Source: Acidimicrobiia bacterium
GTDB taxonomy: Bacteria > Actinomycetota > Acidimicrobiia > Acidimicrobiales > AC-14
NCBI GenBank assembly: GCA_023265025.1
Contig: JAHFUP010000037.1
Coordinates: 1-44,119, forward strand
Direction: 5' to 3'
Length of the DNA: 44,119 nt
Shown: positions 1,589 to 10,083 of the stretch, piece after piece
Layout: every line of letters starts with the position of its first letter
Position numbering within the stretch: position 1 is the first letter of the stretch
Program-made: the position numbers and the translations under genes
The notes under the pieces: model-generated
What the model was told of the DNA's origin: nothing
Database searches by the model: none
What the model saw: the letters and a program-made list of their open reading frames with translations, nothing else

Positions 1589-3310
1589 ATGACAAAGAGG
1601 TCGTTCGGTGTCCGAATGGCGACGGTGGTCGGTGCCAGCGTCCTTCTTGTCCAAGGGGTGTCGTTCGGCGCCGGTACGGCGCCGATGGGGCTGACGACCC
1701 CCGTGCAGGCGACCAAGACCAATCTGGATCCCGGGCGCATGTACAGCACCCCGACCTTCGCCGTGGACCCGGGGAACTCGCTGCGCATCGTCGCCGCCGC
1801 GGCGGACCTCCGTTCCCGGCGGTGTGACGTGATGCGGTCCCTCGACGGTGGTACGTCCTGGACGATGCTCGAGGCGTCGCCCGCCCTGGCGTCCTACCCC
1901 TTCTGCTCCCAGAGCCAGGGCGGCGTCATCCAGGCGCCGATGGCCTTCGGCCGCAATGGCACCCTCTACATGGCGACCGGCGGCTGGGACGACCAGGACG
2001 GCGCCCGCGCCTCCGGCGCCATTGTGATGGCCCGGTCCACCAACCTGGGCGACACGTGGGAGAGCACCCTCGTCTACAACGCCCGGGGCAAGACCGGCGA
2101 CGCGGCAGAGAACGTCCGGCCGGCCCAGGGCCTGGTCGTCGACACCAAGCACGGCAGCGACGACATCGTCGTCGTCAGCTTCAACGTGTCCAAGCCCAAC
2201 AGCGCCGCCCCCAACGCAGTGCCGAACCTGCCCATGGTCGCGGTGTCCCGTGACGGCGGCCGCAACTTCGAGCCTCCGACGGACCTGTCGGCCGGCCAGT
2301 TCGACGCCGCCCCCGTACGCCAGCAGGCCCTGACGTCGCGGACCACCGTGACCCTGGCCCCCGGGGTCACCACCACCAGCACCACCGCCCCGCCGGCCGG
2401 CTCCAAGGCGGCGCAGCCCGACCAGGCCGCCAACTTCGGGGGCAGCAACGCCCGCCTGGCCTCCGACGGCCAGGGCACGTTGTACGCCCTCTGGAACTCC
2501 GGCGCCTCCAACATCACGCCGGCGCCGCCCGCGGGCCGGTTCCTCTCCAAGTCCACCGACGGCGGCAAGACGTGGACGACCACCCAGACCATGCCGTTCT
2601 CCTACGACAACGCCGGGGCCCGCTTCGCAGTGAGCAGCAAGGGCGTGCTGCACATGGTGTACCAGCGCAACCCGAAGCCCGACCTCAACGGCTACGGCGA
2701 GGTCTATCACCAGGCCTCGACCGACGGCGGCAAGTCCTGGAGCGAGCCCAAGGTCCTGAGCGACGACAACGAGGCGGAGCTGAAGGTGCAGGTCATCCCG
2801 AACGTCAGCGTGGCCCCGAATGGCCGGGTGGACGCCGTCTGGTGGGACACCCGTGACGACCCGGGCACCCGTTCGAACGACGTCTACTACAGCTACAGCA
2901 CCGACGACGGGCGCACCTGGAGTGCCAACAAGCGCATCACCGACCAGAGCGTCGACCGGAAGGTCGGGGTATGGGGCGCCAACTACGACATCACCTCGCC
3001 GCCCGCGGTGTTCTCCAGCAACGCCTACGCCATCTTCGGCTGGGACGACACCCGGGCCACGCCGGCGAGCTACACCATTCCGATCAACGGCGAGTATGGC
3101 GCCGGCATCCAGGACGTCTACATCGCCGTCGCCCAGTTCGAGGTCCTGGGCCCGGCCAACAACGACACGGCCCGCGTCGTGCTGGCTGCGGTCGTCGGCC
3201 TCTTCGTCGTCGGCCTCATCCTGCTCGGCGTCGCGGTGACCGCCAAGCGTCGCGGCGCGGCGCCGCTGAAGGCGTCCTCCGGCGACACGACGAAGGCGAG
3301 GGTCGGCTGA
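1589..3310 (+). CDS. Exported BNR (Asp-box) beta-propeller protein with C-terminal membrane anchor
   Basis: A 573-residue protein from ATG 1589, preceded by a purine-rich site (cgaaggga). An N-terminal signal sequence (about 1-30, FGVRMATVVGASVLLVQG) is followed by a sialidase-type propeller. Six Asp-box-like motifs are visible: SLDGGTSW (84-91), STNLGDTW (150-157), SRDGGRNF (220-227), STDGGKTW (322-329), STDGGKSW (377-384) and STDDGRTW (437-444). A Thr-rich stretch (about 253-268) interrupts the propeller. A C-terminal membrane segment (about 535-557) ends in KRRG. Asp boxes mark the fold and do not prove sialidase activity; I see no convincing arginine triad. The protein should sit on the outer face of the membrane. 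Two further proteins of the same design lie at 5094-6563 and 8542-10083. Confidence 0.8.
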   Translation: MTKRSFGVRMATVVGASVLLVQGVSFGAGTAPMGLTTPVQATKTNLDPGRMYSTPTFAVDPGNSLRIVAAAADLRSRRCDVMRSLDGGTSWTMLEASPALASYPFCSQSQGGVIQAPMAFGRNGTLYMATGGWDDQDGARASGAIVMARSTNLGDTWESTLVYNARGKTGDAAENVRPAQGLVVDTKHGSDDIVVVSFNVSKPNSAAPNAVPNLPMVAVSRDGGRNFEPPTDLSAGQFDAAPVRQQALTSRTTVTLAPGVTTTSTTAPPAGSKAAQPDQAANFGGSNARLASDGQGTLYALWNSGASNITPAPPAGRFLSKSTDGGKTWTTTQTMPFSYDNAGARFAVSSKGVLHMVYQRNPKPDLNGYGEVYHQASTDGGKSWSEPKVLSDDNEAELKVQVIPNVSVAPNGRVDAVWWDTRDDPGTRSNDVYYSYSTDDGRTWSANKRITDQSVDRKVGVWGANYDITSPPAVFSSNAYAIFGWDDTRATPASYTIPINGEYGAGIQDVYIAVAQFEVLGPANNDTARVVLAAVVGLFVVGLILLGVAVTAKRRGAAPLKASSGDTTKARVG

Positions 3311-3352
3311 ACAGCCATCCTTCTCTGGGGCGGCCTACGCGCACCCCACGGC

Positions 3353-3382
3353 CCGCCCGGCACCCACTAGGGTGCCGGGCGG
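3353..3382 (+). terminator. 13-bp perfect hairpin after the BNR gene, touching the next start codon
   Basis: Bases 3353-3365 (ccgcccggcaccc) pair perfectly with 3370-3382 around the 4-base loop acta. The hairpin lies 43 bases after the BNR stop and its last base is the G of the proposed GTG start (3382) of the solute-binding protein. It may be a terminator without a U-tract, or it may limit access to that start codon. A TAnnnT hexamer (tagggt, 3368-3373) lies 8 bases before the GTG and could drive a leaderless transcript. Confidence 0.5.
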
Positions 3383-4989
3383 TGTCGCGCCTCCGTTCCC
3401 TCATCGCCCTCCTCCTGCTCACCGCCCTCCTCGCCGCCGGCTGCTCCAGCGGCGGTGGCTCGGAGGAGACCGATGACGAGCCCGCCGAAGCCAGGGCCAC
3501 CGCGCAGGATCTCCGCGTCGCCGTAGGTGACGATCCGTTCATGGCGGGCAACCCGCCGGCGTTCGACATCGGCATCCGCACCAACGGGCCGAACCCGGGG
3601 ATCTTCGAGACCCTGACCCGCCTCAGCCCCACCTACGGGGTGGAGGCGGCCCTCGCCGAGCGATGGGAGACGCCCAACCCGAAGACGTGGCGCTTCTTCC
3701 TGCGCAAGAACGTCACCTTCCACAACGGCACCGCGTTCAACGCCGAGGCGGTCGTCGCCGCCCTGGACGGCTTCACCGGCCGCCAGACGCGGCCGCGGGG
3801 CCTGGACAAGGGCACGGCCAAGGCCACGTCCGACGACGTGGTCGAGATCAATCTGACCGCCGACAACGCCCGTTTGGCCGAGCAGCTGGCCAACCCGAAC
3901 ATGGCCATCCTGGCACCCGGCACCCGCCCCGGGTCGGGCGACACGCCGGAGACCACGCCCGTCGGCACGGGGCCGTTCAGCTTCGTGTCCTACGCCAAGG
4001 GCACCGAGCTCAAGATGAAGGCCAACGAGAAGTACTGGGATGGCAAGCCAGAGCTGCGCTCCCTGGCGTTCAAGTTCGGCCCGGAGAAGGACGCCAGCCG
4101 CCTGCTGGCCACCCGCCAGGTGGAGATCGCCGGCATGGTGGCCTACGCCAACCTGGCGTCGGTGTCGGGGCGCACCGACAAGAACGTGCAGTCCCGGCCG
4201 GGCCAGGCCGTCTACATGATCATGAACACCGGCGGGATCGACGAGTGGCAGGTCCTGAAGGACGACAACGTCCGCAAGGCGGTGGCCCAGACCATCGACC
4301 GCAACGAGGTGGTCAAGGCGGCCTGGGACGGCCACGGCGAGGACAGCGACACCCTCATTCCCGAGATCGTCCTCGGCGCCGACGCCGCCGACCGCGTGCG
4401 GCCGCCGCCGCTGAACCGCAACGAGGCCAAGAAGTCCCTCGACGCCGCCGGCTGGATGCCCACGCTGCCCAACGGCATGCGGGCCAAGGCCGGCCGGCCA
4501 TTGGTCCTCCGGCTCCTCCTGTCCCGCGCCACTGACCAGACCAAGGCGGCGGAGAACATCAAGTCGCAGCTGGCCGAGGTCGGTATCGGCATGGAGGTCC
4601 AGGACCCGGGCACCGACCCGCCGGCGACGAAGGTGAACAATGCCACGTTCGACATGTACCTCGACGTCCGGGCCCAGGACGACGCCAACCCGTGCGCGCT
4701 CTGCCGCTTCTTCACCATCCGCCCGGGCGGCCAGCTCAGCTTCTCGGCGTCGGTCGGTGGCGGGCCCAAGGTCGACGACGCCTATGACCGCATCTTCGCC
4801 GCGCCGTCCATCGACACCGCCCGGCGCACGGCGGCCGACATCATGCAGGTCGTCACCGCCGAGCGCATCACCGCGGTCTCCATCGCCTCGCTCCGGACCG
4901 AGTGGCTGATCTCGCCCCGGGTGCGGGGCTTCGAACCCTCGGTGCTCACGGGTGACCAGCGCTGGGAGGGCGTGTTCCTGACGGTGTGA
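3382..4989 (+). CDS. ABC transporter family 5 solute-binding lipoprotein
   Basis: A 535-residue protein from GTG 3382. This start was chosen because it gives a compact lipoprotein signal (MSRLRSLIALLLLTALLAAG with Cys21), whereas the frame open upstream overlaps the BNR gene. The body matches the SBP_bac_5 (oligopeptide/nickel) family. It has an N-terminal stretch FETLTRLSPTYGVEAALAE, a WRFFLRKNVTFHNGT strand typical of the family, and a total length of 500-plus residues. These proteins deliver peptides, nickel or other solutes to an ABC permease. No permease or ATPase of the Opp/Dpp type is adjacent, so it is an orphan receptor here. The gene ends with TGA overlapping an upstream GTG of the next frame. 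The ligand cannot be deduced from sequence. Confidence 0.85.
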   Translation: MSRLRSLIALLLLTALLAAGCSSGGGSEETDDEPAEARATAQDLRVAVGDDPFMAGNPPAFDIGIRTNGPNPGIFETLTRLSPTYGVEAALAERWETPNPKTWRFFLRKNVTFHNGTAFNAEAVVAALDGFTGRQTRPRGLDKGTAKATSDDVVEINLTADNARLAEQLANPNMAILAPGTRPGSGDTPETTPVGTGPFSFVSYAKGTELKMKANEKYWDGKPELRSLAFKFGPEKDASRLLATRQVEIAGMVAYANLASVSGRTDKNVQSRPGQAVYMIMNTGGIDEWQVLKDDNVRKAVAQTIDRNEVVKAAWDGHGEDSDTLIPEIVLGADAADRVRPPPLNRNEAKKSLDAAGWMPTLPNGMRAKAGRPLVLRLLLSRATDQTKAAENIKSQLAEVGIGMEVQDPGTDPPATKVNNATFDMYLDVRAQDDANPCALCRFFTIRPGGQLSFSASVGGGPKVDDAYDRIFAAPSIDTARRTAADIMQVVTAERITAVSIASLRTEWLISPRVRGFEPSVLTGDQRWEGVFLTV

Positions 4990-5096
4990 GCGAGCACGCC
5001 GGCCGGGAGGCCCGGCGAGCGCAGCGACCAGGAGGCGCGGTGGGCGAGCACGCCGGCCGGGAGGGCCGGCGAGCGCAGCGACCAGGAGGCGCGGTG
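4990..5096 (+). repeat. Two tandem copies of a 54-bp GC-rich unit carrying a Shine-Dalgarno site and GTG
   Basis: Copy 1 begins at about 4990 and copy 2 at about 5044. They are identical apart from one clear substitution (c at 5011, g at 5065). Each copy ends in aggaggcgcggtg, a ribosome-binding site followed by GTG (5040 and 5094). Because 54 is a multiple of 3, both GTGs and the GTG at 4986 are in the same frame as the following BNR gene. The unit has alternating ccggccggg/cccggcg blocks that could fold. Confidence 0.85.
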
Positions 5097-6563
5097 ATCC
5101 CGCTGGCGGGGGCCGCGTGCCTGCTCGGCCTGGTGCTGATGGTGCTCGGCTTCCAGCCGGGGCCGGCCCGCCTCCGCCCGGCGACGCCCGACTTCGTCAA
5201 TACCGACCGGCCCGGCATCAACGCCCACAACTCGCCGTCGGTCGCGGTGAACCCGGTCCAGCCCGCCATGATCGCGCTGGCCGACCGGATCGACACCCCG
5301 CGGTTCTCGTGCTCGGTGTCGCTCTCCACCACCGGTGGGGACAGCTGGAGGCCGCTCACCCTCCCGCTCCCCGTGGAGGCCCCGAATTGCCACCAGCCCG
5401 ACGTCGTCTTCGACGCCGCCGGCCGGCTGCTGGTCCTGTACACCGCCACCGGCGGCCGGTTCAACCAGCCGGTCGGCGTGTGGCTCCAGCGCTACGCCGG
5501 CGATGCCACCGACGGTCCGCCGGTCCGGGTGGCGCCGGCCGAGGCGTTCCACGCCCGCATGGCCGTCGACGGCGCCCGGGTGTGGGTGACGTGGGTCCAG
5601 GCCGACGGGGCGGCCGACAAGCCGCTGGGCTTCGGCACCACGCCGGCGCCGGTCCGCCTGGCCCGCTCGGTCGACGGGGGTGCCACGTTCTCGCCCCCCG
5701 TCACCGTGAGCGAGGGCCGGCGCGCCGTCCAGCCTGCACCCGTCGTCGTCGACGGCCGGCTGGTGGTCGGCGCCCTCGACCTGGCCGGCGACTTCGTCGA
5801 CTATGAGGCCCGCCACGGCGGCCAGGGCGGCTCGCCGCCGGAGGACCGCTGGCGGGTGGTGTCGTGGACCTCGACCGACGGCGGGTCCACCTTCGGCCCG
5901 CCGGTCACCGTGGCCGGCGACATCGAGGCGCCGGCCCGCATCATCGTGAACCTGGCGCCGGCGCCGAGCTTCGCCGCCGACCGGAGTCGCCCCGGGCGGG
6001 TGTACGCCACCTGGGACGCGGGCCGGGGCGACGGTCGCGATGTGTTCCTGGCCCGGTCCGACGACGCCGGCGCCACCTGGACGGCCCCGGTCGCCGTGGC
6101 CGCCGGGCCGAGGGGCCAGTTCCTCCCCGCGGTCGGCGTGTCGCCCGGGGGGCGGGTCGACGTGGTCTTCTACGACCGCGGCGCCGACCCCGACGACGTG
6201 CGGGCCCAGGTCACGATGGCGTCCTCGTCCGACGCCGGCCGCACGTTCCGCACCGCCACGCTCTCCGACGCGCCGTTCGACACCCGCATCGGGTTCGGGA
6301 GCCTCCAGGGCATCCCCGTCCTCGGCAGCCGGTTGGCCGTCCTGTCGGGTACCGACCGGGCGCTGGCCTTCTGGTCCGACACCAGCCGGGGCACGATCGA
6401 CGACAACGTCCAGGACCTGGCCGGCGTGCGCGTCGACGTCGAGGACGCCGGCCGCCGCCGGCCGGCGATCATGGTCGCCGGGGCGCTACTTCTTGGCCTT
6501 GGCGGCGGGCTGGCTGCTGTCCTCCGCCTCCGACCAGGTCACCGTCGACCACAGCAGGCCTAG
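5094..6563 (+). CDS. Second exported BNR (Asp-box) propeller protein with C-terminal membrane segment
   Basis: I place the start at GTG 5094, where AGGAGG precedes the codon and a hydrophobic signal (IPLAGAACLLGLVLMVLG) begins at once. This gives 489 residues. The frame is also open from GTG 4986 through the tandem repeat, which would add 36 Arg/Gly-rich residues ahead of the signal and is less plausible. Asp-box-like motifs include STTGGDSW, SVDGGATF, STDGGSTF, SDDAGATW and SSDAGRTF. The C terminus has a membrane segment (AIMVAGALLLGLGGGLAAVL) followed by basic residues. Fold and topology therefore match 1589-3310 and 8542-10083. The last 78 bases overlap the convergent gene at 6486-7037. 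The function is unknown; the propeller may bind ligands or proteins outside the cell. Confidence 0.75.
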   Translation: MIPLAGAACLLGLVLMVLGFQPGPARLRPATPDFVNTDRPGINAHNSPSVAVNPVQPAMIALADRIDTPRFSCSVSLSTTGGDSWRPLTLPLPVEAPNCHQPDVVFDAAGRLLVLYTATGGRFNQPVGVWLQRYAGDATDGPPVRVAPAEAFHARMAVDGARVWVTWVQADGAADKPLGFGTTPAPVRLARSVDGGATFSPPVTVSEGRRAVQPAPVVVDGRLVVGALDLAGDFVDYEARHGGQGGSPPEDRWRVVSWTSTDGGSTFGPPVTVAGDIEAPARIIVNLAPAPSFAADRSRPGRVYATWDAGRGDGRDVFLARSDDAGATWTAPVAVAAGPRGQFLPAVGVSPGGRVDVVFYDRGADPDDVRAQVTMASSSDAGRTFRTATLSDAPFDTRIGFGSLQGIPVLGSRLAVLSGTDRALAFWSDTSRGTIDDNVQDLAGVRVDVEDAGRRRPAIMVAGALLLGLGGGLAAVLRLRPGHRRPQQA

Positions 6564-7037
6564 GCCGAACACGGCCAGGGCCGAGGAGAAGTGGTAGATC
6601 GTGGCTGCCCACGACGCCGCATCGGGCCCACCCCGGAGCGTCTGGGCCACCAACGGGATGTGGGTGGCCATCATCCACAATCCGGCCAGCAGCACGGCCA
6701 TGCCGGCGATGAGGCGCAGGGCGCCCGGGCCCTGCGGCCGCCGGCCGGCCAGGATCCCGACGACCGAGGCCAGCAGGACCAGGATGGCCGGGATGATGTG
6801 GTCGGCGACCTCCTTGGAGGCGTCGACGGAGAGCTTGGGGCCGCTGTACTGGGGTAGCGACGCCCACAGGGCCACGCCCAGGCCGACCAGGGGCAGGAGC
6901 CGGGCCAGGTCGGGCCCGGCCGGCGGGGGGGGTGCGGCCTTCGATCCCTTTGGCGATCCCTTGCTGCCACTCGATCCCTTGCTGGCGCTCGAGCCCTTGG
7001 GCCGCGTCTTCGCCGGCGTGGCGCGGCCCTTCGCCAT
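6486..7037 (-). CDS. Four-helix membrane protein with Lys/Ser-rich N terminus
   Basis: A 183-residue protein of no family I recognise. Residues 1-35 are basic and low in complexity, with repeated KGSS/SKGS units. About four membrane segments follow (LARLLPLVGLGVALWASL, IIPAILVLLASVVGILAG, LRLIAGMAVLLAGLWMMA, and a last one around IYHFSSALAVFGLGLLW), then a short Lys-rich tail. Its ATG lies directly after the stop of the Sec-containing ATPase gene (7038), so it is the last gene of the operon 10083 to 6486. The cytoplasmic basic tail could contact the ATPases or the membrane surface, which is inference only. Its 3' end overlaps the convergent BNR gene by 78 bases. Confidence 0.7.
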   Translation of the reverse strand: MAKGRATPAKTRPKGSSASKGSSGSKGSPKGSKAAPPPPAGPDLARLLPLVGLGVALWASLPQYSGPKLSVDASKEVADHIIPAILVLLASVVGILAGRRPQGPGALRLIAGMAVLLAGLWMMATHIPLVAQTLRGGPDAASWAATIYHFSSALAVFGLGLLWSTVTWSEAEDSSQPAAKAKK

Positions 7038-7778
7038 CTAGGCGAGCGAGGGGATCAGCGTGGAGGCCAGGCCGATGAGGGCGCGCACCGCCGGCGCGTC
7101 GGGGTCGAGGTCGATGGGGGCGACGCCCAGGCGGTCGGCCTCCACGATCTTGGGGTCGTGGGGAACGCCGATGACCTCTATACCCGGGAACGCGGCCTGC
7201 ACGACTTCAAGGTCCTCGTCGTGGCGGATGCGGTTGGCGACGACCACGATGCGGGCGACGGTGCGCTCGGAGGCCAGGCCCGCGGCGCGTACGCCGACCT
7301 CGATCGACTTCGGGGTGGCTTCGACGACGATCACGACAGTGTCGACGTGCTCTTCGCCGAGGCGGGTGAGGGTACCGACGCCGGCCTCGAAGTCGGCGAC
7401 GACGACGTCGTCTTCAGGGAACTCAACGGAGCCGAGCAACTGCTCGGGCGACAAGCCACATCAGAGTCAGCCAGGTTCGGGGTTGTCGATCCGGCTGACC
7501 ACCGCCAATCGCACCCCGTCGGGACCGTCGGATCCGTAGCGGCTGATGAGGGTGTCCCAGTTGTTGGCGTGCTCCTCCTCGCCCTCGTCGAGGGCCTGGC
7601 GCATGGAGACCAGCCGCTCGGTCTCCTCGTCGCCCACGCCGAGGCTGATGCCCAGGTTGGGGTTGGAGTCGCAGTCGAGGGCGACGACCGCCCTGCCGCT
7701 GCGGGCCAGGGTGCGGGCGATGACCGACGACGTCGTCGTCTTGCCCGACCCGCCTTTGCCTACGACAGCCAGCTTCAT
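7038..7778 (-). CDS. Candidate selenoprotein: CooC/MinD-type P-loop ATPase with Sec-Leu-Sec at the C-x-C motif
   Basis: Read as one frame, this gene encodes 246 residues with two in-frame UGA codons (7469-7467 and 7463-7461) at positions 104 and 106. The N-terminal part has a deviant Walker A with signature lysine (GKGGSGKTT) and an Asp-rich LDCDSNPNLG strand. The C-terminal part has VVVADFEAGVGT, VVIVVEATPKSIE and VVVANRI, all typical of the CooC/MinD/ArsA ATPase group. The junction reads ...RIDNPEPG-UGA-L-UGA-CGLSPEQLLG.... In CooC-type ATPases this position carries a G-C-x-C motif at the dimer interface that binds metal. Both UGAs therefore replace the two motif cysteines, and the frame is unchanged before and after. 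A candidate SECIS hairpin follows the second UGA. The ATG overlaps the stop of the upstream paralogue by four bases. The alternative is a pseudogene or two separate ORFs (7467-7778 and 7038-7454), which explains the cysteine coincidence poorly. Confidence 0.75.
7432..7447 (-). promoter_or_regulatory. Candidate bacterial SECIS hairpin in the CooC-like gene
   Basis: On the minus strand CCGAGC (7447-7442) and GCTCGG (7437-7432) form a 6-bp perfect stem with loop AGUU (7441-7438). The loop starts 20 bases after the second UGA and 26 after the first, with G as its second base. Bacterial SECIS elements are short coding-region hairpins within roughly 16-37 bases of the UGA, with a G among the first two loop bases, so geometry and loop fit. 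Caution: the stem also encodes PEQLLG, and codon choice alone could create this palindrome. Confidence 0.5.
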
Positions 7779-8545
7779 CTTGAGACAGTCTCCTCGCTCA
7801 GGCGCTCAACCAGCGATTCTACCGCCAGGACCGCCGGACAGGCAGGGGCAAAGTCGATCGGGGCCAATTGCCGGCGCTCGGCCTCGGCCAGCTCCTCGTC
7901 CCAGGGCACCGTGGCGATGACCTCGAGCCCCACGCCCTTCTCGATCATCTCGACGTCGCCGTCCTGGCGGACCTTGCTGGCCACGACCATGACCCGCTTG
8001 GGATTGTCGGGATCCAGGTTGGCCATGTTGGCCAGGCGCCGGCCGGAGAGAAGCGACTTGGCCGTCGGCTCGACCACGATCAGGATGGTGTTGGCCCAGG
8101 AGCCCCACCCGGTGAAGGCCTGCCGGGTGCCGCCGGGAAGGTCGCCGACGACGTTCCAACGGCCGGCGGGCAGCTTGTTGATGATGAGCCGGAACGCCAT
8201 CTGCGACCGCCAGAGGTTCCGGGGATCGCCCGAGATCTTGCCGAATTGGAGGAACCGCACGCCGTCGGGTGCCTCCACCGACCAGCGCTCGACGGCGTCG
8301 AAGGGGTCGACGTCGGGGTTGAGCCGCCAGCGGGGCCCTTCCTCGCCCTCCTTGCGCTCGATGACTGCGTCGTCGGGGATCGGCGGGCTGTGGTCGATGG
8401 CGAGCCCCAAGGAGTAGGCGAGCCCCGGGAGGGGGTCGGAGTCGATGGCCAGCACCTTGTCGCCCTGGCGGGCGAGGGTGCGGGCGAAGGTGCCGGCGAT
8501 GGCCGACTTCCCGGCGCCGCCCTTGCCCACGAATGCCAGTCTCAT
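7775..8545 (-). CDS. CooC/MinD-type P-loop ATPase, paralogue without the C-x-C motif
   Basis: A 256-residue protein from ATG 8545, which overlaps the stop of the upstream BNR gene (ATGA). It has a deviant Walker A, GKGGAGKSA, and the strand VLAIDSDPLPGLAYSLG. A C-terminal half with ILIVVEPTAKSLLSGRRLA and VMVVASKV closely parallels the neighbouring Sec-containing ATPase. Where that protein has U-L-U-C, this one reads FGKISGDPRNLWRSQM, with no Cys or Sec. The family comprises dimeric ATPases that load metals, position proteins or deliver membrane proteins. The pair probably works together, perhaps as a heterodimer in which one subunit carries the metal or redox site; that is inference. It sits in a tight minus-strand operon with an exported BNR protein upstream and a membrane protein downstream. 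Confidence 0.8.
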   Translation of the reverse strand: MRLAFVGKGGAGKSAIAGTFARTLARQGDKVLAIDSDPLPGLAYSLGLAIDHSPPIPDDAVIERKEGEEGPRWRLNPDVDPFDAVERWSVEAPDGVRFLQFGKISGDPRNLWRSQMAFRLIINKLPAGRWNVVGDLPGGTRQAFTGWGSWANTILIVVEPTAKSLLSGRRLANMANLDPDNPKRVMVVASKVRQDGDVEMIEKGVGLEVIATVPWDEELAEAERRQLAPIDFAPACPAVLAVESLVERLSEETVSR

Positions 8546-10083
8546 GAGGAGACCACCTGCCTGTTCTCTGCGTCGGTTGAAGAGGAGGAGCCGCCGCCGT
8601 TGCGGCGGCTGCGGGCGACGCCCCCGGCGAGGGCGGCCAACAGCACCACGGCGAGCACCCCGAGCACGATGCCCCGGCTGCTCCCGCCCGGCACCTCCAC
8701 GGCGGCGAAGTTGACGTCCTGGCGGCCGGTCACCGGCGTGCCGGCGCTGGTGTCGGTCCAGCTGGCGTACAGCTTGCCGTCGCCGTGACCCAGCCCGAGC
8801 CGGGTGCCGAAGTCGGTGCCGTAGTCGGGGCCGAAGGTCGGCCCGATCTCCTCGAGGAACGATCTGGTCGACAGCCGGACGTTGTCGAACGTCTTGCCGC
8901 CGTCGGTGGACGTGGCCAGGTAGGCGTCGAGCATCTTCTTGTCGCCCGGGTCGTTGCGCCCGTCGAGGAAGAGGATGCTCACCCTGTCGCCGGGGCCGAC
9001 GTCGACCTTGGGAAGGAACTGCGCGGTGCCGTCGGCGCCGTTGTCGTTGACCTTGAGCGCCGGCGTCCATGTCTTGCCACCGTCGGTCGACGAGCGCAGG
9101 AAGACGTCGTCGTCGCCGTCGCGCCCGTCGGCCCAGGTGGCGTACAGCTTTCCGTCGGACGACTCGGCCAGTTGGGGCAGCTCGGGGAGGAACGGAAGGA
9201 ACCGGCGGGTGGCCAGCACCTCGGTCTCGAACTCGGCGCCGGGCGCGAACGTCTTGCCGCCGTCGGTGGAGCGGGTGACCACGAGGGAGAAGGGGAGCTC
9301 GGCCGCCGGGCCGGGCTGGTTCTCGTAGTCGCGCCGGTTGGCCTTGAGGTCCTCGTACATCACGACGAGCTGGCCGTTCGGCTGGACGACCACGGCGGGA
9401 GCGACCACCCGCTCCCGTTGAGGATCGCTGACCGGCACCGCGGGGGCGAAGGTCTTGCCGCCATCTTCGCTGCGGGCCATCAGGATGCGGGGCGGCGGGT
9501 CGGCGAAGCGCAGGAAGCCGACCTCCGACGCCTGCAACCAGGTCACGTAGACCGGCCCCTTGGGGTCGACGGTGACCCGGGCCTGGAAGGTGAGGGGGCC
9601 GGCGACCTTGGTGGGCAGCGAGAGGGTGCGCCCGCCGTCTGAAGACGTGGAAATCCAGAGGTTGTCCGGGCGGTTGCCGTTGCCGACCAGGTTGACGTAG
9701 GTCACGTACAGCGTGCCGTCGGGCGCGAAAGCGGCGTCGGGGGCGAACGGGCACGGCTCGCCCTTCGGGGAGGCGGTGCACACCGTGATCCCCTGGGGCA
9801 GGGGCAGGATCGTCTGCTCCCAGCTCTCGCCGCCGTTGGAGGTGTGGGCGAGGAAGGACGAGTACCCGGGCCGGTCCATCCGGTAGGTGACGACGACGTT
9901 GCGCGGGTTGAGCGGGTTGACGGCCACGGTGGGGGAGTTGCTGACGTCGATCGCGCCGTCGCGGTTGACGAAGACGTTGCCGGCGACCGCGATCGACCCC
10001 GACGAGGTCAGGGCCAGGGCGACGCCGACGAGGGCGACGAGGCCGACGACCGTAGCGAGGGTGGCGAGCACGGTCCGCCTCAC
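8542..10083 (-). CDS. Third exported BNR (Asp-box) propeller protein with C-terminal membrane anchor; first gene of the ATPase operon
   Basis: A 513-residue protein from GTG 10083. The N-terminal signal (MRRTVLATLATVVGLVALVG) is followed by a propeller with Asp-box-like motifs TSNGGESW, SSDGGRTL, SEDGGKTF, STDGGKTF, STDGGKTW and a final STDGGKTF. A membrane segment near the C terminus (GIVLGVLAVVLLAALAGGV) ends in a basic, Ser-rich tail. The SPTVAVNPLNPRNVVV stretch after the signal resembles SPSVAVNPVQPAM in the protein at 5094-6563, so these two are close relatives. It overlaps the ATPase start by four bases (ATGA), meaning that an exported propeller and cytoplasmic ATPases are translationally coupled. 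Enzymatic activity is not evident. Confidence 0.8.
   Translation of the reverse strand: MRRTVLATLATVVGLVALVGVALALTSSGSIAVAGNVFVNRDGAIDVSNSPTVAVNPLNPRNVVVTYRMDRPGYSSFLAHTSNGGESWEQTILPLPQGITVCTASPKGEPCPFAPDAAFAPDGTLYVTYVNLVGNGNRPDNLWISTSSDGGRTLSLPTKVAGPLTFQARVTVDPKGPVYVTWLQASEVGFLRFADPPPRILMARSEDGGKTFAPAVPVSDPQRERVVAPAVVVQPNGQLVVMYEDLKANRRDYENQPGPAAELPFSLVVTRSTDGGKTFAPGAEFETEVLATRRFLPFLPELPQLAESSDGKLYATWADGRDGDDDVFLRSSTDGGKTWTPALKVNDNGADGTAQFLPKVDVGPGDRVSILFLDGRNDPGDKKMLDAYLATSTDGGKTFDNVRLSTRSFLEEIGPTFGPDYGTDFGTRLGLGHGDGKLYASWTDTSAGTPVTGRQDVNFAAVEVPGGSSRGIVLGVLAVVLLAALAGGVARSRRNGGGSSSSTDAENRQVVSS

Follow-up and report, generated by a model that had tools for sequence, protein, structure and literature searches.

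CooC1 of Carboxydothermus hydrogenoformans (PDB 3KJE/3KJI) is a nickel ATPase for CO dehydrogenase. Two of its cysteines, Cys112 and Cys114, bind zinc at the dimer interface, nickel competes for this site, and it has been proposed that the metal is released upon ATP binding (PMC6006190). According to the available part of the same source, the CO-induced [NiFe] hydrogenase of Rhodospirillum rubrum is not among the clients of its CooC protein (PMC6006190), which counts against transferring the role of CooC to a hydrogenase without a test.

In the available part of a 2026 catalogue of 119 prokaryotic selenoprotein families, the vast majority of the proteins contain a single selenocysteine (Sec, U), many are thiol oxidoreductases or carry redox motifs, and part of them are predicted to bind metals (PMC13188914). 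A CobW-related protein and CopZ-type copper chaperones are included, so that there is precedent for Sec in metal-handling proteins. The sole entry named as an ATPase is of the cation-transporting E1-E2 type, and no CooC, MinD, ParA or ArsA-type ATPase appears in the part of the catalogue at hand (PMC13188914). Sec encoded by UAG, together with a tRNA-Sec with the anticodon CUA, is known in Geodermatophilaceae for proteins other than the one discussed here (PMC5330540).

The present analysis concerns a stretch of 44,119 nucleotides from an Acidimicrobiia bacterium, referred to as the window, and in it an ATPase gene with two in-frame UGA codons.

Gene layout and the two UGA codons

The gene and its upstream neighbour are arranged as follows.

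7038 to 7778, minus strand: putative Sec-x-Sec CooC-like ATPase gene, 246 codons followed by a TAG stop, TGA read as U
7467 to 7469, minus strand: UGA codon 104, putative Sec, on CooC1 Cys112 in the alignment
7461 to 7463, minus strand: UGA codon 106, putative Sec, on CooC1 Cys114 in the alignment
7775 to 8545, minus strand: partner ATPase of CbiA/MinD type without C-x-C, 4-nt overlap (ATGA) with the Sec gene

When TGA is translated as U, the only internal stops are the TGA codons 104 and 106, in the context PEPG-U-L-U-C-GLSPEQLLG. The gene starts at 7778 inside the stop codon of the upstream ATPase gene, and its TAG directly abuts the start of the next gene. An earlier reading of the DNA, made from the sequence alone, had described two open reading frames in one frame, separated only by UGA-CTC-UGA-TGT. 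The common frame was confirmed. The spacer is longer than claimed, as a GGC codon also precedes the TTG at 7454, which is the apparent start in mechanical ORF calling. The same reading had placed the P-loop in the N-terminal piece, where GKGGSGKTTT is indeed found, and had pointed to an intact paralogue at 7775-8545, which is borne out by 35% identity over 251 columns. This paralogue has no C-x-C of its own.

The Pfam matches of the protein are CbiA/MinD-type ATPases. No NCBIfam model (June 2026) matched it over cut-off, and NF041053 was not among its matches. The best NCBIfam score for a MinD/ParA partition or cell-division ATPase was 48 bits, against a cut-off of 202, and does not place the protein in that group.

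Alternation of cysteine and stop codons in orthologues

A scan of a species-genome collection yielded 26 relatives with 59-94% identity, all recorded as actinobacterial. A search of 396 genomes of the host phylum, in which clade membership was assigned by bit score and motif and one gene was read per genome, yielded 12 genomes with the same clade, own genome included. The window gene, the 26 relatives and the 11 additional genes form a set of 38 orthologous genes. Their carriers include Blastococcus saxobsidens, a Modestobacter and Pseudonocardia kunmingensis.

UGA or UAG is present at one or both motif positions in 33 of the 38 genes. The motif reads UGA-x-UGA in 12 genes, Cys-x-UGA in 19, Cys-x-UAG in 2 and Cys-x-Cys in 5. 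The stop codon is at position 106 in all 33 stop-bearing genes, and at position 104 in 12 of them. Cysteine is the only other residue at these positions, and the alternation is confined to them. No further internal stops were seen in the 38 genes up to about codon 238 (in L045, up to the contig end at about codon 217), and the half of the gene past the UGAs stays conserved. The relatives with 91-94% identity share UGA-x-UGA without extra stops. In-frame UGA, conserved coding sequence on both sides and cysteine in homologues, the hallmarks of a selenoprotein gene, are thus all found among the 38 genes. The sequence-only reading had considered two nonsense mutations on both motif cysteines improbable. 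Chance is indeed very unlikely, because 33 of 38 orthologues have UGA or UAG exactly there and, as far as they were read, no other stop.

A protein tree from which the motif was left out requires 7 changes at position 104 and 4 at position 106, so that Cys and putative Sec alternate repeatedly. Many inner branches are weak, and the well-supported branches alone force fewer changes for the four motif classes (for example, 2 for UGA-x-UGA). Some orthologues (e.g. L023, L025, L044) themselves terminate in TGA.

Selenocysteine machinery and tRNA-Sec anticodon

The own genome of the window is 98.4% complete. It encodes SelB (273 bits), SelA (406 bits) and SelD (361 bits), all above curated cut-offs, and a tRNA-Sec (66 bits) with the anticodon tca (UCA), so that selA, selB, selC and selD are all present. 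Its SelD is a Sec protein itself and reads HGAGUACK. In the same genome, a SelB-model match at C52:89855-91195 runs across two in-frame UGAs; this is probably an elongation-factor gene with downstream sequence.

Among 26 homologue genomes, 20 have a tRNA-Sec above the Rfam gathering score. ARAGORN confirms 19 of these 20, in 18 of 22 stop-bearing and in 1 of 4 Cys-x-Cys genomes; the exception is the Rfam match of the L042 genome (49.8 bits), which goes unrecognised by ARAGORN. When the own genome is added to the 19, the anticodon is CUA in 2 of 20 tRNA-Sec, and these belong to exactly the two genomes with UAG in the ATPase gene, those of Modestobacter sp. DSM 44400 and Blastococcus saxobsidens (L041, L043). 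ARAGORN labels both CUA tRNAs as Pyl, yet they are the top Rfam tRNA-Sec matches in the two genomes. The other 16 of the 18 tRNA-Sec from stop-bearing homologue genomes have UCA. The home genome of L022 has two tRNA-Sec genes above cut-off on different contigs (L061, L072), which could be a duplicate or reflect a mixed assembly.

SelA was found in 27 of 33 stop-bearing genomes versus 1 of 5 Cys-x-Cys genomes (Fisher p 0.012, with relatedness ignored). It was not found in 6 of the 33. In the smaller set, 4 of the 22 stop-bearing genomes (L028, L031, L034, L042) gave no identified tRNA-Sec. Both are missing in the genomes of L031 and L042. Gaps in the assemblies may account for these absences.

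A conserved candidate SECIS hairpin

A candidate SECIS hairpin follows the two UGAs in the window gene.

7432 to 7447, minus strand: bSECIS-like hairpin, 6-bp stem CCGAGC/GCUCGG, apical loop AGUU

The hairpin begins 13 nt past UGA-106, and its loop lies 19 nt past UGA-106 and 25 nt past UGA-104, within the published distance of 16-37 nt from both UGAs (PMC13188914). The available text of the catalogue further gives a bSECIS rule with a loop of 3-9 nt, G in the first two positions, a stem of 4-16 bp, a distance of 16-37 nt from the UGA and an energy of at most -7.5 (PMC13188914). In our scan, distances were measured from codon 106 and 15-37 nt were allowed. The rule holds for all 33 stop-bearing genes, with -9.5 kcal/mol for the window gene, and for 1 of the 5 with Cys-x-Cys.

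The codons GAG-CAG-TTG-CTC at positions 112-115 (window numbering) are present in 33 of 33 stop-bearing genes, despite a share of TTG among the leucine codons elsewhere in these genes of 6.4%. Among the five Cys-x-Cys genes, the string is complete only in L035. RNAalifold predicts a single hairpin for the 33 stop-bearing sequences, with 7 pairs and the loop AGUU. Five of the seven pairs are invariant, and the genes are related. Alignment pair 24-37 occurs as C-G, U-G and U-A; pair 22-39 is C-G in some sequences, G-C in others, and not formed in 9, including the window gene. The covariation score is 0.152, versus 0.089 for shuffled alignments, and it is also highest for the hairpin when compared with slid versions (next 0.073). 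None of 500 shuffles reaches the covariation score, and the counts of paired cells and of doubly changed cells are likewise above every shuffle. At least as many pairs with double changes occur in 282 of the 500 shuffles, and at least as many pair types in 320, so that these two measures do not stand out.

Taken one by one, the hairpins compare with synonymous-codon shuffles at p 0.01-0.35 (0.13 for the window gene). The single-sequence fold of the window region is not significant by shuffle, and Rfam at gathering thresholds gives no match in the window. It is the conservation across genes that gives weight to the hairpin; single hairpins are not exceptional.

Resemblance to CooC1

Among solved structures, CooC1 ranks first against the family profile, with 8.5e-25, followed by the next structure with 1.2e-11. 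In the alignment, codons 104 and 106 fall on Cys112 and Cys114. The protein shares with CooC proteins the deviant Walker A motif and a C-x-C motif at the position of these cysteines, with Sec apparently replacing Cys.

The AlphaFold2 model, made with Cys for Sec, has a pLDDT of 87.5 and a SIMIBI fold. Among the 50 rows that Foldseek listed, CooC1 has the top query-normalised TM-score (0.73) and is sixth by E-value. When the same list is ranked by VIA-align, CooC1 comes 47th (Z 20.0), behind chains of FlhG, MinD and NifH (Z up to 22.2). In the fold ranking, CooC1 is therefore not favoured over MinD, FlhG and NifH, so that the fold fits CooC without choosing it. On the sequence evidence, the ATPase encoded at 7038-7778 is likely a CooC-like metal chaperone.

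Partner ATPase and genomic neighbourhood

The genes around the two ATPase genes include the following.

8542 to 10083, minus strand: BNR/Asp-box repeat protein, its gene overlapping that of the partner ATPase by 4 nt
6486 to 7037, minus strand: 183-aa protein, directly downstream of the Sec gene, conserved in related loci
3301 to 4989, plus strand: SBP_bac_5 binding protein, best NCBIfam matches nickel NikA models, below cut-offs

In 36 of 38 loci, the adjacent upstream gene encodes a partner ATPase without C-x-C; the two genes overlap by 4 nt in 25 loci. The BNR gene is probably on the same transcript as the partner ATPase gene. The 183-aa protein has no Pfam or NCBIfam match and, by eye, looks membrane-bound. 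SBP_bac_5 genes recur near some related loci. Three BNR/Asp-box proteins surround the ATPase operon (1589-3310, 4986-6563 and 8542-10083), and proteins of this type are found again in related loci.

One or more genes for a hydrogenase (large or small subunit) or its maturation (HypF, HypD, HypC, protease) are present in the flank of 21 of 38 loci, or 25 of 38 with accessory genes; these are raw counts from flanks that differ in length, from about 4 to 20 kb. The flanks were searched by tblastn at 1e-5 with representatives from these loci. Labels were assigned by Pfam/PDB for HypF, HypC, the NifU domain and both hydrogenase subunits, by eye for the protease, and HypD was checked by the coordinates of the genome HypD matches. 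No hydrogenase genes were found in the flanks of the window locus and its nearest relatives, which instead contain BNR-repeat proteins, the small downstream protein and, in several cases, SBP_bac_5. A NifU-domain gene is present in several of the clusters. Some of the hydrogenase clusters also contain runs of three small, probably membrane proteins (L032:10460-11344 and relatives); the L032 protein has no Pfam match.

Hydrogenase large subunits (PF00374) were found in 25 of 27 genomes searched, own genome included. Two large subunits were compared with solved structures, one from the Blastococcus locus and one encoded at another place in the own genome. Both come closest to HofG of PDB 5AA5, with 444 and 495 bits, compared with 181 and 153 bits for the next structures. 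We take HofG of 5AA5 to be from an actinobacterial hydrogenase of the group 1h type. HofG is described as the AH large subunit in the available part of a published study (PMC11540253).

Wider family

In a second clade, found in 11 genomes (L092-L102), Sec would occupy only the first motif position (G-U-[LM]-C). Hydrogenase genes are present in the fetched flanks of 8 of the 11, and folding of the clade 2 genes gives a candidate hairpin close after the UGA. For the scanned proteins of either clade, no NCBIfam model (June 2026) matched over cut-off.

The own genome contains a further MinD/CooC-type ATPase gene on contig C143 (L118:140-889, minus strand), in which a single in-frame UGA occupies the first motif position (G-U-T-G-T-A-H). 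This is a probable second Sec ATPase of the same genome. Cysteine paralogues are also present, on C45 (CLCC, sharing 45% identity with the Sec protein) and on C184 (GCSC). The 396-genome set contains weaker family matches (e.g. G407, G166, G140, G107, G226), several with internal TGA. A plasmid collection gave one distant match (31%), from Acetoanaerobium, in surroundings without annotated features.

Discussion

We propose that the product of the gene is a SIMIBI ATPase, similar to CooC, with selenocysteine in place of both cysteines in the C-x-C motif. SelB and Sec-tRNA(Sec), together with one SECIS hairpin, would decode both UGAs. The protein probably acts together with the motif-less partner ATPase encoded upstream. 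In a homodimer or a heterodimer, a soft metal, most likely Ni(II), would be held between selenolates at the subunit interface. ATP binding would then lead to metal release and to the supply of a nickel enzyme, in many relatives likely a [NiFe] hydrogenase of the actinobacterial type.

The probability that the Sec decoding and the metal-site role both hold, with the client left aside, is about 0.78. The replacement of both motif cysteines by Sec, as suggested by the sequence-only reading, gains support from the Sec machinery, the Cys/Sec alternation, the hairpin and the anticodon-linked UAG. The further suggestion in that reading, that selenolates would alter metal affinity, agrees with the position of the two codons on CooC1 Cys112/Cys114. 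From these comparisons, Sec at both codons 104 and 106 appears nearly certain, and a role of the Sec-x-Sec motif as a metal site has good odds. Delivery of nickel to a hydrogenase client is balanced between yes and no, and a heterodimer with the motif-less partner is a tentative proposal. Equally tentative is the most far-reaching version, in which a whole actinobacterial group of CooC-like ATPases would have Sec in the metal motif in every combination (Sec-x-Sec, Cys-x-Sec and Sec-x-Cys). In the Sec-x-Sec form, one SECIS would program two Sec residues two codons apart, and the resulting di-selenolate nickel site (up to four selenolates per homodimer) would serve to mature high-affinity hydrogenases of soil bacteria.

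The same selenoprotein might handle another metal, with the selenolates holding an Fe-S cluster or another soft metal for hydrogenase or a different client. The NifU-domain gene in several clusters would fit such a role, as would the report on R. rubrum CooC (PMC6006190). Moreover, NifH-type Fe proteins score at least as high as CooC1 by fold. The nitrogenase Fe protein holds a 4Fe-4S cluster. However, NifH cysteines are single and more distant from each other, whereas the C-x-C spacing is that of CooC1, which is also much nearer by sequence than NifH. The recurrence of NikA-like binding proteins near some loci speaks against another metal as well, and we regard it as unlikely, if worth keeping in mind.

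The ATPase could also replace the nickel GTPase HypB in hydrogenase maturation. In the 396-genome sample, 21 HypD-positive genomes have a clade-1 or clade-2 ATPase (in one case only the Cys-x-Cys form), and HypB over cut-off is missing in 18 of these; among the 181 HypD-positive genomes that lack such an ATPase, it is missing in 48. These genomes are not mutually independent. Among the 48 HypB-less genomes, 11 match the family profile at 1e-15, with motifs unread, but 37 do not, so that HypB absence requires no such substitute. As the matches number only 11 and HypB is present in the own genome of the window, replacement is a possibility and not a finding. As a general rule it was rejected, and as a minor alternative it is rather improbable.

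Efficient decoding might be limited to UGA-106, with mostly termination at UGA-104 and the Sec-x-Sec form as a minor product. The constancy of the stop at 106, compared with 12 of 33 genes at 104, and the larger number of state changes at 104 would be compatible with this. Nevertheless, 12 genes, among them several divergent ones, retain UGA-104 and show no other decay, and the loop is at a published distance from this codon too. Compared with double decoding from one SECIS, this alternative has a slim chance.

It is very improbable that UGA is read as Trp, Cys or another standard residue, or that the gene encodes two polypeptides. A second start is formally possible at the TTG after the second UGA. 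However, several orthologues end in TGA, the codon alternates with Cys only, UAG replaces UGA only together with a CUA tRNA-Sec, and only 1 of 5 Cys-x-Cys genes retains the hairpin. An alternative genetic code and two separate proteins were therefore rejected. A pseudogene or sequencing errors in a MinD-type ATPase, suggested only by the appearance of two broken ORFs, can be dismissed, in view of identical stops and no others in 33 orthologous genes from 33 genomes, a conserved hairpin, a codon swap that tracks the tRNA anticodon and a conserved downstream half free of decay.

Sec in a CooC-type metal motif, single or paired, would add a well-defined case of selenium in ATP-driven metal transfer, and a solved Cys homologue is available for comparison. 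The Sec-x-Sec gene is also a natural test of one SECIS directing two close Sec insertions. If the di-selenolate nickel site is real, selenium supply would be tied to nickel insertion and to the scavenging of atmospheric hydrogen. Such genes are broken up by pipelines that take UGA for a stop, so that a family beside soil-actinobacterial hydrogenases may be hidden in databases.

In comparison with known systems, the ATPase probably represents an undescribed selenoprotein family, CooC-like in sequence and with a Sec-x-Sec metal motif. No literature on a selenocysteine CooC/MinD-type ATPase was present among the matches listed, which come from open-access sources and leave most subscription papers outside. 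We take the CobW-related selenoprotein to belong to a P-loop family of metal-handling GTPases, in which it resembles the Sec ATPase. It differs in having UxxC with one Sec and in being, by name, of a different family (NF041053; PMC13188914). The FmdB-like protein (UxxU), the putative mercuric reductase (UxxU) and MbdU are similar to the Sec ATPase in having two Sec residues, and for some of the two-Sec proteins metal binding is proposed or implied. In the available part of the catalogue, however, none of them is a CooC/MinD-type ATPase or has a Sec-x-Sec motif (PMC13188914), in agreement with the sequence-only reading, which knew of no Sec-x-Sec ATPase of the CooC family.

The UAG selenoproteins of Geodermatophilaceae (formate dehydrogenase, FDH, the UGSC protein, and AhpC in Blastococcus saxobsidens) share with the present case the UAG codon, the CUA tRNA-Sec and the bacterial family, but those named in the available text are different proteins, without the Sec ATPase among them (PMC5330540). 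HypB, the nickel GTPase of [NiFe] hydrogenase maturation, is similar as an NTPase in nickel delivery (PMC6006190); it belongs to a different family and uses a different nucleotide, and both proteins are encoded in the window's genome. The closest counterpart is CooC1, which the Sec ATPase resembles in length, in the deviant Walker A motif GKGGxGKTT and in the place of the C-x-C motif. It differs from CooC1 in the proposed Sec at one or both motif positions, in the motif-less ATPase encoded next to it, and in the hydrogenase genes around many of its relatives.
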